In this document: piece by piece, positions 19,331 through 25,751 of the stretch
How positions within the stretch are numbered: position 1 is the stretch's first letter
How the letters are laid out: each line of letters starts with the position of its first letter
Made by a program: the position numbers and the translations under genes
Source of the DNA: Veillonellaceae bacterium
Lineage (GTDB): Bacteria > Bacillota > Negativicutes > JAAYSF01
Length of the DNA: 64,000 nt
Reading direction: 5' to 3'
Assembly (NCBI GenBank): GCA_012523975.1
Contig: JAAYSF010000017.1
Location: 71,302 to 135,301, forward strand
The notes under the pieces: generated by a model
Databases searched by the model: none
What the model saw: only the letters and a program-made list of their open reading frames with translations
Told to the model about the DNA's origin: nothing

Positions 19331-19992
19331 CTATGTTTTATATTTTTTTCCTTTTGGTAAAACATCTTTATTTACCAAGTCTAGATAACTTTCGCGCTTA
19401 ACAACCTCATCTGCGCTTCCGTTTTGATTCCAAGAAGCGCTTGACCATTTGCGATGGCCATTCCAAATTTAGAGTCGATCATACCGGTTTTAATATAATG
19501 ATGAGTAAGAGCATCAATACCCGGTGAAACTCTTAATAATATTTTTTGTTTAACCTTTTTCTCTTGTGTTAAATTGTTAAGCAAATCGAGTTCGTAAAAA
19601 TTATCAACAACAATACAACCGATCCTTGCCTCCAGAGCCAGTTCAATTTCGCTATACGTTTTATTATTGCCATGAAAGTTAATACGGTCAACAGGATAAA
19701 TCAACACTAAGCGCAGAATATAGTTCGCCTCCCGAAACAACATCTAGCCCCATGTCTTCCTCCTCAATTAATTTACACACAGCCGCTGTAGAAAACACTT
19801 TACATGCATAAATCACTTCAAATTTTGGATAGTATTTTTTAAAAGAATCTACATACGCCTTACAGTTTGGCGAATTTTGTTTTCATCCATTACATACAGA
19901 GGAGTGCCAAATACTTTTACTAGCTCAGTGGCGTCGCATCCCCCGATTTCTAAATGCCCAAGAGCATTTACCTTCATTATACCTTGCATCAT
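19331..19992 (-). pseudogene. lysA: Decayed diaminopimelate decarboxylase gene
   Basis: The minus strand encodes pieces of LysA (lysine from meso-diaminopimelate) in more than one frame. The N-terminus, VNALGHLEIGG then VFGTPLYVMDENKIRQTV, ends at a TAG. The next piece, YVDSFKKYYPKFEVIYACKV to DVVSGGELYSALSV, continues in a second frame and stops. The third, PVDRINFHGNNKTYSEIELA to TGMIDSKFGMA, is in another frame. The last, EVVKRESYLDLVNKD, is the normal LysA C-terminus, joined directly after about residue 215, so an internal part near 180 residues long has been deleted. A functional lysA must exist elsewhere if the cell makes lysine this way. Confidence 0.9.
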
Positions 19993-20243: not shown

Positions 20244-20996
20244 TTGCAAAAATTCACTAAGAATTTAAAAGTTATAAACTGTATAATAACGGTTGCTGTT
20301 ATCTCTTTTCTACTCGTCGGCTGCGGCATGATGACCCCAGCCCAAAAGCCTGATGTTGGTCCTGCTGGCAAACCTGTAGAGTCTAAACCAAATCCCCCGC
20401 TGCTTGAGAGATTTTACTCGCCACCGCCTGAGCTCTACGATCTTGAAGCAACTGCCGGTGTCTTATTTGAGGGTATCAATAAAGAAAACTGGGAACAAGC
20501 AGAGGCCGGATTTAATAATTTACAAACCATATGGGTAAATGCCAAACCGCTAGTTGGCGATAAAAAAGGTGTTAAAGAAGCAGATAAGGCCCTTCAAGAA
20601 TTATCAACAGCTATTGCCGATAAGAAAATTACTAACTCTTACGAAAACCTCAACCAGTTTATGGGCAGCATTGGAGACATTGCTAAATCGTATAAACTCT
20701 CACCACTTTCAAGTATAATTGGCGTTAGCAATGCGGTAAGAAATGTTAACTTCTATGTTGAAGACAAGGATTGGCCGAAGGCAGCGTCTAAAGTTAAAGA
20801 ACTGGAAGGTATCTGGGGCAATGCTAAACCTACTATGGAGCAAGTAGGTATATTAGATGAAGTAACAAGAACCCATTCTTTGATAAAACAAATGAAAGAT
20901 GCCGTAAATGCCGAAAATAAAGGTGCCATTGAAGAGCATACCGCTAATATTAACGAAAGCCTTGGCTATATTCGCAACTTCTTCCGCGAAAAATAA
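20244..20996 (+). CDS. Lipoprotein with two repeated helical segments, unknown function
   Basis: A TTG start with an AGGAGGGG site gives 250 residues. The N-terminus is a lipoprotein signal with the lipobox LVGC (Cys27), so the mature protein is lipid-anchored outside the cytoplasmic membrane. A Pro-rich linker (about 32-55) precedes two similar helical units: NWEQAEAGFNNLQTIWVNAKP and DWPKAASKVKELEGIWGNAKP, about 100 residues apart. I know no function. It is convergent to spoVAF, from which a shared terminator separates it, and divergent from the lysA remnant. Confidence 0.85.
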   Translation: MQKFTKNLKVINCIITVAVISFLLVGCGMMTPAQKPDVGPAGKPVESKPNPPLLERFYSPPPELYDLEATAGVLFEGINKENWEQAEAGFNNLQTIWVNAKPLVGDKKGVKEADKALQELSTAIADKKITNSYENLNQFMGSIGDIAKSYKLSPLSSIIGVSNAVRNVNFYVEDKDWPKAASKVKELEGIWGNAKPTMEQVGILDEVTRTHSLIKQMKDAVNAENKGAIEEHTANINESLGYIRNFFREK

Positions 20997-21002
20997 AGAT
21001 TA

Positions 21003-21049
21003 AATAATACAAGGGGCTATCTCATCGAGACAGCCCCTTGTATTAATTT
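21003..21049. terminator. Bidirectional terminator between the lipoprotein gene and spoVAF
   Basis: A 13-base stem AATACAAGGGGCT/AGCCCCTTGTATT (21006-21044) has A/T-rich flanks on both sides and serves the plus-strand lipoprotein gene and the minus-strand spoVA cluster. Confidence 0.85.
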
Positions 21050-22556
21050 AATCTTTATCGCCCTTATTTTTATTTTTATCTTTGCCTTTAGTAGTCTCAA
21101 TTCTATCTTGGTCTTGCGGCTTTAATACTGCTGGCCGTAGCACTTTATCAGGAATTGGCAACCGGAATAAAACGTCTTTGAGCGCCGTAAAATTAAAGGG
21201 TAAGATAGGCCACAAATAGGAAACACCGAAGGATTTAGTAAAGAGCATTGCTACCAAAATTCCTCCCAAGGCTAATAAAAAGCCTGGCAGCTTGAATAGA
21301 AATACAGCAACAACTAGGATTAGGCGAAAAAATCGCATAGCCATGGCAAATTCCATACTTGGTGTAGCAAATGAGCCCACGGCTGCTACCGCTGTATAAA
21401 AAATTACCTCATTTCCGAATAGCCCCACTTGTGTAGCAAAATCCCCTAGCATAAAAGCTCCGATAAAACCAAGTGCGGTAGCTTGCGGTGAAGGAACATG
21501 AACTGTAGCCATCCTTACAATTTCTACTCCTATTTCCGCTAAGATAAACTGTATCCCTATTGGCAGAGCACCAGCCTCACGCGGTCCTAAGAAAGCAAGC
21601 GGTTCTGGCAGAAGCTGCGGCTGTAATGCGAATGCAAGCCATAGTGGCGGCAAAATTAGCGATAATAATACGGCAAACAACCTTACCATACGAAGATAAG
21701 AACCTATAACCACATTTTGTCTAAACTCTTCTGCATGTTGTACATGATGGAAGAAGGTTGTTGGTAAAATCATAATATTCGGCGACGTATCCACAATTAG
21801 ACAGACATGACCTTCTAAAAGGTGAACTGCCGCAACGTCCGGTCGTTCGGTATATCGGACTTTAGGCAAAGGATTCCACTTACTGCCTTTAACTACGTAT
21901 TCCTCTATAGTCCGTTCAGCCATAGGTATACCATCAATACTGATATTATTGAGCCGTTCTTTTATAGTGTCTACTAACTCAAGATTTGTAATATCTTTAA
22001 TGTAACAAACTGCTATATCAGCTCGTGACCGTGAACCAACTTTAACGATTTCAAATCTGAGATTTGGATCACGTAGCCGCCGGCGTATCAATGCGGTATT
22101 AAAGACAATTGTCTCAACAAATGAATCGCGCGACCCGCGCGTTACTTTCTCGATATTTGACTCAGATGGCGACCTACTCGGATATGCCCTGGCATCAAGA
22201 ACTAAGACTTGGCTTTCTCCTTCAACAAAGAATAGCATTTCACCAGACAATAAACTTGTTAGGGCATCATTCATATTGTCAATAAGTTTTACCTGCGAAT
22301 GAGTTGCTCTTGAATAATACAGCTTTTGAAACAAGTTGAGTGATAACTCCTCTTGATTAAACGCTACCATCTCTTCAAAAACGTTACTAATTAAAATGTC
22401 ATTGACCATGCCATTGATTGAAAATGAAGCTGCACGTTTGCGTCCGACCTTATATTCACGAAAAACGACGTCAAAGCTTTCACCGACCCCTACTAGGTCT
22501 TTTACGTAATTAATATTAACGTCGATATCTTTATCAATCTTGCGTTCTATGACCAT
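21048..22556 (-). CDS. spoVAF: Stage V sporulation protein AF, GerA family
   Basis: This 502-residue protein is a GerA-type germinant-receptor A-subunit homologue as encoded at the end of spoVA operons. The soluble N-terminal half has GSRSRADIAVCYIKDI and DGIPMAERTIEEYV. The membrane half holds about five helices, with LPTTFFHHVQHAEEFRQN, GPREAGALPIGIQFILAEIGVE and SYLWPILPFN. The C-terminal tail is very Lys/Asp-rich. It overlaps spoVAEa by 23 bases. In Bacillus, SpoVAF helps DPA release in germination. Confidence 0.94.
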   Translation of the reverse strand: MVIERKIDKDIDVNINYVKDLVGVGESFDVVFREYKVGRKRAASFSINGMVNDILISNVFEEMVAFNQEELSLNLFQKLYYSRATHSQVKLIDNMNDALTSLLSGEMLFFVEGESQVLVLDARAYPSRSPSESNIEKVTRGSRDSFVETIVFNTALIRRRLRDPNLRFEIVKVGSRSRADIAVCYIKDITNLELVDTIKERLNNISIDGIPMAERTIEEYVVKGSKWNPLPKVRYTERPDVAAVHLLEGHVCLIVDTSPNIMILPTTFFHHVQHAEEFRQNVVIGSYLRMVRLFAVLLSLILPPLWLAFALQPQLLPEPLAFLGPREAGALPIGIQFILAEIGVEIVRMATVHVPSPQATALGFIGAFMLGDFATQVGLFGNEVIFYTAVAAVGSFATPSMEFAMAMRFFRLILVVAVFLFKLPGFLLALGGILVAMLFTKSFGVSYLWPILPFNFTALKDVLFRLPIPDKVLRPAVLKPQDQDRIETTKGKDKNKNKGDKD

Positions 22557-23130
22557 AATTTACGCCACTCCGTTTCAAAACTTCCTCAATCGCCTTCTTT
22601 GTAATCGGTGCACCACGCCTGATATCATCTGCTTTATCCATTTTTCCGATATCCCCAACACCAATTATTACTGGTACTTCGATATCGTTTAGAACATCTA
22701 CGGTATCACCAGTGATTCGTGTATCATGTCGACTTCCTTGCTTTATCTCACCATTCTTGTCAACCGAACTAGCAACGATATCGCCTGACATTGTAACACT
22801 GGCATCAACTTCAACACCGTTAATGCCGGTTGTATTAGATGCTACCGCCACAGCCCCGAGTACCTCTATATCGGGATGTGACGCCACATATTCCATGGCT
22901 CGCTCACCTAAGCCTTTGCTACTCTCACCGCGATCGTCAAACATAACTAATACCGGATCATAAGGTACTGTTTTTAATAAAGCGACAATTTCCTTACCGC
23001 TTATTGGGGTTGGATTTCCTGCCGAAGCTGATATACATCTTAACCCTAACGAGTTTCCTATCTCCTCAATAACTTGTTGGGCGACTCGGTCCCCGTCAGT
23101 TATAAGTATAACCCGCACCTTTTTCGGCAA
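22534..23130 (-). CDS. spoVAEa: Stage V sporulation protein AEa
   Basis: This soluble 198-residue protein matches SpoVAEa, starting MPKKVRVILITDGDRVAQQV at a TTG with a GAGGTGA site. Family stretches are RCISASAGNPTPISG, VPYDPVLVMFDDRGE and IPVIIGVGDIGKMD. In Bacillus it lies between spoVAEb and spoVAF. Here it keeps the position before spoVAF, but two additional genes separate it from spoVAEb. Confidence 0.92.
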   Translation of the reverse strand: MPKKVRVILITDGDRVAQQVIEEIGNSLGLRCISASAGNPTPISGKEIVALLKTVPYDPVLVMFDDRGESSKGLGERAMEYVASHPDIEVLGAVAVASNTTGINGVEVDASVTMSGDIVASSVDKNGEIKQGSRHDTRITGDTVDVLNDIEVPVIIGVGDIGKMDKADDIRRGAPITKKAIEEVLKRSGVNYGHRTQD

Positions 23131-23142
23131 AATTGTGTCACC

Positions 23143-23802
23143 TCACGATTTTTTATTACTACTTTCCCCTAGTAAATTGCTAATTTGGTTTGCAATTTTT
23201 TCACTTTCACTTATGACTTGTTTCAGTTTCTGCAAACTAGTTTCCAGTTCATTAGCAAGCTCGTATTGTGCTTTGGCCAACACTTGACTGGCTGTTTGAA
23301 CAGCTAGTGCCGACGATTCATTATTTTGCTTGGAAGACTGCGATTTCGCATTAGAATTACTCTGAGACTTCTGGTTCTGATTATCTGATTTCATAAGAAT
23401 TTGACTGAATAAGTTTTCCAAGTTCTTAGCAGGCTGATTTTCAGCCTGGCTATCGGAATTAGGCTGATTCTGTTCCTCTCCTTGCTGCTGTTGCTGCCCC
23501 GACTGTGGCGTTAACTGAGAGCTAGGATTGTTCATTTGCTGCTGATTTTGGCCCGCACCTTGCTGTAACTGCAGTAGTTCAAGCTGACTATTTACTTTTT
23601 GCAGCAAATCCAAAATCGCCTGATTATTGGCAGAGCTACTGCTACTGGCTTGAGCTTGTGCAAAGCCTTTTGCTAAATCGGTCACAATGTTAGCATCACA
23701 ATTATTATCACTGCCATATTCTTCAAGATTCTCTGTTAAAGTGCTAGTATTTTTACCGGGTGACTTTAAATTAAGGTGATTACGCATTGTTCTTCTCGAC
23801 AC
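23143..23802 (-). CDS. Gln/Asn/Ser-rich coiled-coil protein in the spoVA cluster, unknown function
   Basis: I do not recognise this family. GTG 23802, six bases after GGGAGTG, is the best start (219 residues); a TTG six codons earlier has no good site. The basic N-terminal 20 residues precede a short coiled coil (LDLLQKVNSQLELLQLQQ). A long low-complexity region rich in Gln, Asn and Ser follows (about residues 82-165), then a C-terminal helical coiled coil (ANELETSLQKLKQVISESEK). There is no signal peptide or membrane helix. The composition resembles some spore coat or spore matrix proteins. It sits between an M50-like gene and spoVAEa. Confidence 0.75.
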   Translation of the reverse strand: MSRRTMRNHLNLKSPGKNTSTLTENLEEYGSDNNCDANIVTDLAKGFAQAQASSSSSANNQAILDLLQKVNSQLELLQLQQGAGQNQQQMNNPSSQLTPQSGQQQQQGEEQNQPNSDSQAENQPAKNLENLFSQILMKSDNQNQKSQSNSNAKSQSSKQNNESSALAVQTASQVLAKAQYELANELETSLQKLKQVISESEKIANQISNLLGESSNKKS

Positions 23803-23820
23803 TTTTTTCACTCCCAACAA

Positions 23821-24210
23821 TTACAGAAAATGCCACGAGCTAGCAATGAAAGACAATACTGCAAATCTTAGATTGAGTACAGCAAACGGGTTTCTTAACT
23901 TAGCTGCTGGGTTAAAAATATTTCTAAGCTTTTCCTGATCAATGCCTCCAGATGCAGCACAAAATACGTAATTTGCCAAAGGTCCACTAAGGGCAAACAA
24001 AACAGTCACCGACCAATCACTTTGATTAATGAATGTTGCTGAACCAAATGCTCCGGCTGATATTATAGCGTCAATTCGCCCACTTATTACAAGAGCCATT
24101 AACATACGCCCTATTTCGTGAACGAAAACAGTTATCAGCCCATAATGCGGATAGCGTATTCCAATCGCTAGTATTGTAATGCATAATCCGATTAGATCAA
24201 TTGCTACCAA
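23821..24210 (-). CDS. Small M50-like membrane protein with a degenerate zinc motif
   Basis: A TTG start with AAAGGGG gives 129 residues with about three to four hydrophobic helices. The segment LITVFVHEIGRMLMALVISG (His31, Glu32) resembles the HExxH helix of site-2 and SpoIVFB-type proteases, but the second His is Arg35, and ALSGPLANYVF resembles the following M50 helix. It is therefore probably a non-proteolytic relative. It follows spoVAEb by five bases, inside the spoVA cluster, where no such gene is known in Bacillus. Confidence 0.72.
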   Translation of the reverse strand: MVAIDLIGLCITILAIGIRYPHYGLITVFVHEIGRMLMALVISGRIDAIISAGAFGSATFINQSDWSVTVLFALSGPLANYVFCAASGGIDQEKLRNIFNPAAKLRNPFAVLNLRFAVLSFIASSWHFL

Positions 24211-24215
24211 AGCAT

Positions 24216-24569
24216 TTACCCCTTTGGATTAAAGATTACCGCCATTAGAAAACCAAAAACTACCGCGGCCATTATACCAGCTGCAGTTGCCTTTAATGCA
24301 CCGGTGAATACCCCCATAATCCCTATTTTCGCAACTTCTTCGATAGTGCCAGATACTAATGTGTGTCCAAATCCTAATAAAGGTACGGTAGCACCTGCTC
24401 CGGCAAAGTCTACTAATGGCTGGTAAATGCCAATTCCACTTAAAATACCGCCAGAAACAACAAATAAAACTAATACATGTGCAGGCGTTAGCGGTGTTAG
24501 GTCCATTAAAAGCTGTCCTATCACACAAATTAAACCGCCAATTAAAAATGCCAATAAGTACGACTGCAC
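24216..24569 (-). CDS. spoVAEb: Stage V sporulation protein AEb
   Basis: SpoVAEb is an integral membrane subunit of the SpoVA channel for calcium-dipicolinate in the forespore membrane. The GTG at 24569 with AGGAG upstream gives 117 residues starting MQSYLLAFLIGGLICVIGQL, the usual family start; a longer reading to 24620 is discarded. The motif LLGFGHTLVSGTIEEVAKIG and a homologous fold to SpoVAC are visible. In Bacillus spoVAD lies between spoVAC and this gene; here only 55 bases separate them. Confidence 0.93.
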   Translation of the reverse strand: MQSYLLAFLIGGLICVIGQLLMDLTPLTPAHVLVLFVVSGGILSGIGIYQPLVDFAGAGATVPLLGFGHTLVSGTIEEVAKIGIMGVFTGALKATAAGIMAAVVFGFLMAVIFNPKG

Positions 24570-24624
24570 GTCTTTTTCTCCTTTCGCCCTCACGATCAGG
24601 TTTGATTTTGTTATCAACATTATG

Positions 24625-25083
24625 TTAATGCAAAATCCAGTATATTAGCCCTATAAAAAAGGCGGTCACCATTCCATAAACTAATACAGGTCCTGCTACC
24701 ACAAACATTTTAGCACCAATCCCAAATACATAACCCTCGCGCTTAAATTCCATTGCCGGAGCAACAATCGAATTTGCAAATCCTGTTATTGGTACAACCG
24801 AACCGGCACCTGCCCTACGTCCCAGTTCGTCATAGATGCCAAGTCCGGTAAAAAACGCTCCGAGAAAGACCAGGACGACTGAGCTTAACGCTGAAGCCTC
24901 TTTTCTGGCGATGCCCGCGTCCATAAAGGCATTTTGGAAGAATTGACCAAGCGTACAAATTAGTCCGCCAACTACAAAAGCCCAAACTATGTTTTTGAGT
25001 AGGGGTGGTTTCGGCGAAACCTGATTAACTTTCTCTTGATATTTCTGATGTTCGTCTTTGTTTTGTTGTCCGTAGCTTGCCAT
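24625..25083 (-). CDS. spoVAC: Stage V sporulation protein AC
   Basis: SpoVAC is a mechanosensitive-channel-like membrane subunit for dipicolinate movement across the inner spore membrane. The 152-residue protein has a soluble charged N-terminus (QQNKDEHQKYQEKVNQVSPK), several helices and the family motifs GGLICTLGQFFQ and VPITGFANSIVAPAMEFKREG. The ATG has an AGAGGTG site. It is the first gene of the cluster and carries a sigma-G-type promoter upstream. spoVAA and spoVAB are not upstream, as in clostridial clusters. Confidence 0.95.
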   Translation of the reverse strand: MASYGQQNKDEHQKYQEKVNQVSPKPPLLKNIVWAFVVGGLICTLGQFFQNAFMDAGIARKEASALSSVVLVFLGAFFTGLGIYDELGRRAGAGSVVPITGFANSIVAPAMEFKREGYVFGIGAKMFVVAGPVLVYGMVTAFFIGLIYWILH

Positions 25084-25270: not shown

Positions 25271-25468
25271 TTAATGTACATGAAAAGCTATTTTAACATC
25301 TGCCTTGTATTCAGCAATACGTCCATTGTCAATATTTGCAGTAAAGTTAGTAACCTCTACACCAAGAATATCATCTAGAGTCTTGCTAGCTTCCATAACA
25401 GCACTATCTACCGCATCTGTCCAATTGTTCGGCGAAGTTCCTACTAATTCAATTACTTTTACAACCAC
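25271..25468 (-). CDS. Dodecin, flavin-binding storage protein
   Basis: Dodecin forms a hollow dodecamer that binds flavins or coenzyme A. The 65-residue protein has the family length and core: VVKVIELVGTSPNNWTDAVDSAV with the aromatic Trp17 that stacks on the flavin, and a C-terminal beta strand ending AEYKADVKIAFHVH. The start is GTG with an AAGGGAGG site. It is a single-gene unit between a small membrane protein gene and the spoVA cluster. Confidence 0.95.
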   Translation of the reverse strand: MVVKVIELVGTSPNNWTDAVDSAVMEASKTLDDILGVEVTNFTANIDNGRIAEYKADVKIAFHVH

Positions 25469-25535: not shown

Positions 25536-25718
25536 TTATTCTAAAAAGGCAATATTAAATTCTAGCCGACCAGAATCACCGGCGTTAATATTAAAGACCT
25601 GTTTGGCTCTAACCGGTGATTTACGCGGAACGTCAACCTGAAAATAACACCATGTCAGTAGACTAGCCGACAAAACAAGACAAACAGTTAAAATTGCCCA
25701 AATTGCTTTTTTTCCCAT
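25536..25718 (-). CDS. Small single-pass membrane protein
   Basis: ATG 25718 with GAGGTGA at seven bases gives 60 residues, MGKKAIWAILTVCLVLSASL onward. One membrane helix spans about residues 5-26, followed by a basic Pro-containing segment and a short C-terminal tail. No family is recognised. It lies after the spoIIA operon terminator and could share expression with dodecin, for which no separate strong promoter was seen. Confidence 0.65.
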   Translation of the reverse strand: MGKKAIWAILTVCLVLSASLLTWCYFQVDVPRKSPVRAKQVFNINAGDSGRLEFNIAFLE

Positions 25719-25751
25719 ATAACTCACCTCTAGCAATAGTATCTCCCTTTC

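Follow-up and report, generated by a model that had tools for sequence, protein, structure and literature searches.

We examined the spoVA operon in a 64,000-nucleotide stretch of DNA from a Veillonellaceae bacterium (GCA_012523975.1, contig JAAYSF010000017.1, positions 71,302–135,301), called the window below. The genome it belongs to, coded G000, is 2.47 Mb in 99 contigs and is 100% complete. The operon has no spoVAD between spoVAC and spoVAEb, its usual place although function does not require it, and it carries two additional genes between spoVAEb and spoVAEa. These received the working names M50L, for an M50-like membrane protein, and QN, for a Gln/Asn-rich protein. Comparisons drew on a class sample of 61 Negativicutes genomes and a wider sample of 299 other genomes of the phylum.

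The spoVA operon and its conservation

Six spoVA-cluster genes lie on the minus strand (Table 1), downstream of dacF-spoIIAA-spoIIAB-sigF and a dodecin gene. A sequence-only reading of this DNA had described a 55-base gap between spoVAC and spoVAEb with no spoVAD in it, and an M50-like and a Gln/Asn-rich gene between spoVAEb and spoVAEa; both descriptions held, with all six genes where that reading had put them. The 55 bases are counted from the GTG start of spoVAEb at 24569, where the AEb proteins of relatives also begin. A longer in-frame ATG at 24620 would cut the gap to 4 bases. Further along, spoVAEb and M50L are 5 bases apart, M50L and QN directly abut, QN and spoVAEa are separated by 12 bases, and spoVAEa and spoVAF overlap by 23 bases. 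Because of this tight spacing the six genes look like a single operon. Neither spoVAA nor spoVAB stands at the operon head, where the dodecin gene and a promoter precede spoVAC; the operon head was the only place examined for these two genes.

Table 1. Features of the spoVA locus, in window coordinates
Feature	Position	Strand	Details
Forespore-type (sigma-G/sigma-F-like) promoter of the operon	25130-25101	-	TGAATA (25130-25125), 17 bp, CAAAATA within GGTCAAAATA (25110-25101)
spoVAC (SpoVA channel subunit C)	25083-24625	-	TIGR02838, 191.8 bits, cut-off 164
spoVAEb (SpoVA channel subunit Eb)	24216-24569	-	TIGR02839, 155.2 bits, cut-off 131.1
M50L	24210-23821	-	129-amino-acid multi-helix membrane protein, site-2-protease-like predicted fold, without HExxH
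QN	23820-23143	-	Gln/Asn-rich, conserved C-terminal helix (residues 166-219)
spoVAEa	23130-22534	-	PF14097, 245.8 bits; NF052647, 216.9 bits, cut-off 200
spoVAF (GerA-family ion-channel subunit)	22556-21048	-	PF03323, 497.4 bits
Dodecin gene	25271-25468	-	between sigF and spoVAC

The TGAATA-N17-CAAAATA element lies 14–17 bases ahead of the spoVAC start codon and resembles the sigma-G/sigma-F consensus; judged by its letters, the promoter fits forespore sigma factors. Its -10 region, GGTCAAAATA, recurred exactly in 11 of 20 related spoVA upstream regions and with at most one mismatch in 13, against no exact copy in 1000 shuffled regions, figures that overstate independence in that the motif was picked from the same upstream sequences on which it was scored.

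Gene order downstream of spoVAC is highly conserved. M50L was present in 22 of the 61 Negativicutes genomes, directly after spoVAEb in 21 of them, and the whole block spoVAEb-M50L-QN-spoVAEa-spoVAF was kept in 20 of the 21 genomes other than G000 with an M50L match. This conservation is far beyond chance. The exception, G042 (locus L020), keeps M50L-QN-spoVAEa-spoVAF; spoVAC, spoVAD, spoVAEb and the dodecin gene are gone from between sigF and M50L, and the only C, D and Eb genes in that genome are of type 2 and lie elsewhere than the cluster. The four-gene order that the sequence-only reading had singled out for checking is thus conserved in the class, though normally accompanied by spoVAD.

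A detached spoVAD

Profile search of its own genome found the sole spoVAD of G000 on another contig than the operon (G000:C38:65799-66779), bearing out the suggestion that the gene might lie elsewhere. It is intact, so loss of spoVAD was rejected: the protein scores 465.4 bits against TIGR02845 (cut-off 411.8) and covers 327 of 327 positions with no stops, and, over residues 3–333, it can be aligned end to end with 3lma and 3lm6 (327 and 313 bits), the SpoVAD structures solved for B. subtilis and B. licheniformis. spoVAC and spoVAEb are each present once in G000, both inside the window, which leaves this SpoVAD only one possible C/Eb pair. The genome has no type-2 SpoVA copy, only one C, one D and one Eb.

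Placement of spoVAD in other genomes was judged by position relative to the spoVA block. Thirty of the 61 Negativicutes genomes have the gene: it lies between spoVAC and spoVAEb in 21, is detached in five and is represented by a type-2 paralogue only in two, while in the remaining two it falls on contig ends where placement was not judgeable. The detached cases are G000, G001 and G002 in one family and G004 and G024 in another; in G002, spoVAC has relocated together with spoVAD. An extra case outside the sample count came from the isolate Lucifera butyrica, whose cluster has spoVAC next to spoVAEb, with a type-1 SpoVAD encoded on a different contig.

The detached copies occupy recurrent settings. 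In G000 the gene is followed by a phosphate butyryltransferase-family gene (ptb) and a coat-F-domain gene (CotF), and the order spoVAD-ptb-CotF-aminotransferase-large oxidoreductase is shared with G001; because of this shared neighbourhood, contamination or misassembly is unlikely. DUF1657, DUF2229 (CoA enzyme activase-like) and DUF421 genes lie near the detached copies of G002, G004 and G024, and a DUF1657 gene follows that of Lucifera butyrica. Pfam was run on example neighbours, and the others were assigned by similarity. In other Bacillota classes (L079, L081–L086 and L090), CoA enzyme activase-type genes stand directly after spoVAC-AD-AEb-M50L; among these, DUF2229 was confirmed by test in L082 only.

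The DUF1657 and DUF421 neighbours hinted at a type-2 origin, which we rejected: the SpoVAD tree places the detached copies within type 1, apart from the type-2 paralogues (support 100/100). At most the location, not the gene, recalls type 2. That tree also groups the six detached copies, weakly (70/66), whereas monophyly of the detached genomes is rejected on a tree built from eight neighbouring markers (approximately unbiased test, p-AU 0.013–0.015). A single detachment event was rejected on the marker tree. Given the two trees, differential loss of an ancient additional copy, transfer, or repeated relocation may each account for the history. We found no description of a detached spoVAD in the open-licence literature.

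The accessory genes M50L and QN

M50L and QN are old, conserved accessory genes of the spoVA operon, and both are under purifying selection. Ratios of nonsynonymous to synonymous substitution rates (dN/dS) in unsaturated close pairs were 0.05–0.26 for M50L and 0.12–0.26 for QN; the G000–G001 pair is saturated. M50L extends beyond the class: profile search of the 299 other genomes found it in 15, by position directly after spoVAEb in 14, and the fifteenth match (L089) is likewise downstream of spoVAEb. It follows spoVAEb also in other classes with spoVAD in place. The most constant neighbour of M50L is spoVAEb.

By sequence, M50L scored 15.7 bits against Pfam M50B, below the cut-off of 26 (best member E 5.3e-4). 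Its AlphaFold2 model was confident, with a predicted local distance difference test score (pLDDT) of 89.7 and a predicted template-modelling score (pTM) of 0.82. When the model was compared with PDB by Foldseek, the top four matches were all SpoIVFB or site-2 protease (S2P), with probabilities of 0.84–1.00; the best, 8vjm and 3b4r (SpoIVFB, S2P), had E values of 0.024 and 0.049 at probability 1.00. The HExxH motif was found in none of the 36 members surveyed. Position 35 is never His, H31 is kept in 20 of the 36 and E32 in 16, and these residues are mostly absent from the members in other classes. Because none of the 36 has HExxH, M50L is probably a pseudoprotease with a site-2-protease-like predicted fold.

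QN is 28% Gln plus Asn and matched no Pfam or NCBIfam family. A variable Q/N/S-rich middle is joined to a conserved C-terminal helix; the fold model is mostly of low confidence except for that helix, and comparison with PDB gave generic coiled-coil matches only. G018 has a 91-amino-acid version between spoVAEb and spoVAEa with little beyond the helical part, which implies that the Q/N region is an expansion and not the core. Overall, QN appears to be a spacer of low complexity that carries this conserved helix at its C terminus. Weak matches in other classes are probably chance coiled coils, except in G215 (L110:1480-2055), where a 191-amino-acid protein outside any spoVA locus combines the QN C-terminal helix with a different low-complexity region. 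The open-licence literature yielded no description of the M50L or the QN family.

Several other features adjoin the operon. The dodecin gene stands between sigF and spoVAC in nearly all examined Negativicutes; we found no literature on a spore role of dodecin. At 25536-25736 is a 66-amino-acid protein without family, with one N-terminal hydrophobic stretch, which is conserved behind sigF in many relatives. Downstream of spoVAF, and convergent, is a lipoprotein gene with a DUF4363 domain (20244-20996) whose place is conserved in most relatives. Beyond it, 19381-19968 is a degraded remnant of a lysA-like (diaminopimelate decarboxylase) gene with several stops; an intact lysA is present elsewhere in the genome.

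Interpretation and comparison with known systems

The minimal set of proteins that transports dipicolinate in B. subtilis is SpoVAC, SpoVAD and SpoVAEb: the first and last build the membrane channel, and SpoVAD is a cytoplasmic plug (PMC11841064, PMC13059800). We put at roughly 0.85 the probability that the G000 genes encode a canonical SpoVA dipicolinate channel of type 1 from whose operon spoVAD has been displaced. The same transporter with D acting in trans is the simplest reading because the genome has one intact copy each of C, D and Eb. In the forespore, the operon would supply SpoVAC and SpoVAEb, which together would make up the channel; SpoVAD, expressed in the forespore from its separate locus, would be supplied in trans as the usual cytoplasmic binding and plug subunit. 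The most likely place of M50L would be the inner spore membrane, where it would assist or gate the C/Eb channel, SpoVAEa-SpoVAF, or both, and QN would probably be a flexible tether or scaffold acting via its C-terminal helix. There is precedent for an extra operon-encoded subunit in NJ2 of spoVA2 (PMC13059800). We lean towards M50L being a SpoVA accessory of some kind. A fuller account is tentative and less likely than not: that M50L is an undescribed SpoVA-associated pseudoprotease family, serving as a dipicolinate channel subunit or a Negativicutes stand-in for FigP, with QN as tether, spoVAD repeatedly uncoupled and the plug assembled in trans.

Some results weigh against the reading as a canonical system with a displaced spoVAD. 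A consensus scan for a promoter upstream of the four detached copies in which spoVAD comes first was not significant (shuffle p 0.17–0.93). A GNATTAT...AATACTA-like pair seen by eye upstream of most detached copies is suggestive only. No Foldseek E value of M50L (0.02–0.17) passed 0.001. The partner of M50L is also ambiguous: in G042 it stays with spoVAEa and spoVAF where AC, AD and AEb are gone, and in other classes (G173, G096, G350, G232 and G137) it accompanies AC-AD-AEb in genomes in which we found no SpoVAF orthologue.

The last two results bear as well on whether M50L, or QN, takes in Negativicutes the place of FigP (YqhR), the small membrane protein on which SpoVAF depends in the germination ion channel. 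SpoVAF of B. subtilis cannot do without FigP (PMC11837508). No genome of the 61 Negativicutes reached the cut-off of the FigP family, PF11085, which B. subtilis did reach. SpoVAF orthologues in the class are readily told from GerA paralogues (about 680–890 versus 210–280 bits), and every checked Negativicute with M50L has one, adjacent or elsewhere; G006, G018 and G003 have neither SpoVAF nor M50L. The G042 arrangement fits either a SpoVA-accessory or a FigP role. However, SpoVAF occurs without M50L in G035 and G008, M50L adjoins spoVAEb most constantly, and the genomes of other classes just named have M50L without a SpoVAF orthologue. Homology of M50L to YqhR by sequence was rejected, no M50L member matching PF11085. 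M50L and QN are candidates for the FigP role or another SpoVA accessory role; the strict counterpart of FigP seems unlikely.

Less can be said for the proposal of the sequence-only reading that one of the two proteins replaces SpoVAD as a dipicolinate-binding or plug subunit. It drew on the absence of spoVAD from its usual place and the two extra genes adjoining the channel genes. That idea is deflated, because most Negativicutes with M50L have QN and an in-place spoVAD as well and because G000 itself has an intact spoVAD; the models of M50L and QN, moreover, are without a thiolase-like fold. We consider it highly improbable. We give equally little credence to M50L as an active intramembrane metalloprotease that would process, for example, a forespore or spore-membrane protein: the weak M50B similarity, the SpoIVFB/S2P-like model and the members retaining H31 or E32 would suit it, but we rejected activity on the absence of HExxH and of a His at position 35, and H31 and E32 are lost in many members. 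As for the spoVAD gap being an assembly or binning artefact, the genome is fragmented and spoVAD is on another contig, but AC and AEb are 55 bases apart within a single contig, and G001, G004, G024 and the Lucifera butyrica isolate share this layout, which leaves this explanation a negligible chance.

spoVAC-AD-AEb is usually treated as one transporter unit, with a plug subunit that is essential in Bacillus. The Negativicutes show that the plug gene can reside apart from its channel genes, and strains with a detached spoVAD are natural material for testing if the dosage or timing of the plug has any effect. SpoVA as such is a well-known system. The conserved pseudoprotease M50L and QN, which appear to be uncharacterised spoVA-operon members outside Bacillus models, and a Negativicutes SpoVAF without a recognisable FigP partner mark real, testable gaps in what is understood of dipicolinate loading and release by spores.

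Among known systems, the spoVA operon of B. subtilis (AA-AB-AC-AD-AEb-AEa-AF) shares with the window the C, Eb, Ea and F genes, their order and a forespore-type promoter, and a full-length SpoVAD is encoded in both genomes. The window cluster differs in being without AA and AB, in having AD encoded elsewhere and in having M50L and QN between AEb and AEa. The spoVA2 operon of B. anthracis and B. cereus (C2-D2-Eb2 plus the lipoprotein NJ2) likewise encodes an extra accessory subunit, and some detached copies of spoVAD have DUF1657 and DUF421 neighbours reminiscent of type-2 loci. The window genes are nevertheless type 1, and M50L, as a membrane protein of several helices, differs from a YhcN/YlaJ lipoprotein. 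The spoVAC-AD-AE genes of C. difficile are the minimal C-D-Eb transporter that is common to the genome of the window, but comprise the three core genes only, without AEa, AF, M50L or QN. SpoIVFB and site-2 protease (Peptidase M50) resemble the predicted fold of M50L, which differs from them in its length of only 129 amino acids, in its lack of HExxH and in scoring below the Pfam cut-off. With the SpoVAF/FigP germination channel the window has SpoVAF in common, and the small partner that is missing could be M50L or QN; YqhR did not pass the cut-off in Negativicutes, and M50L is unrelated to it by sequence.

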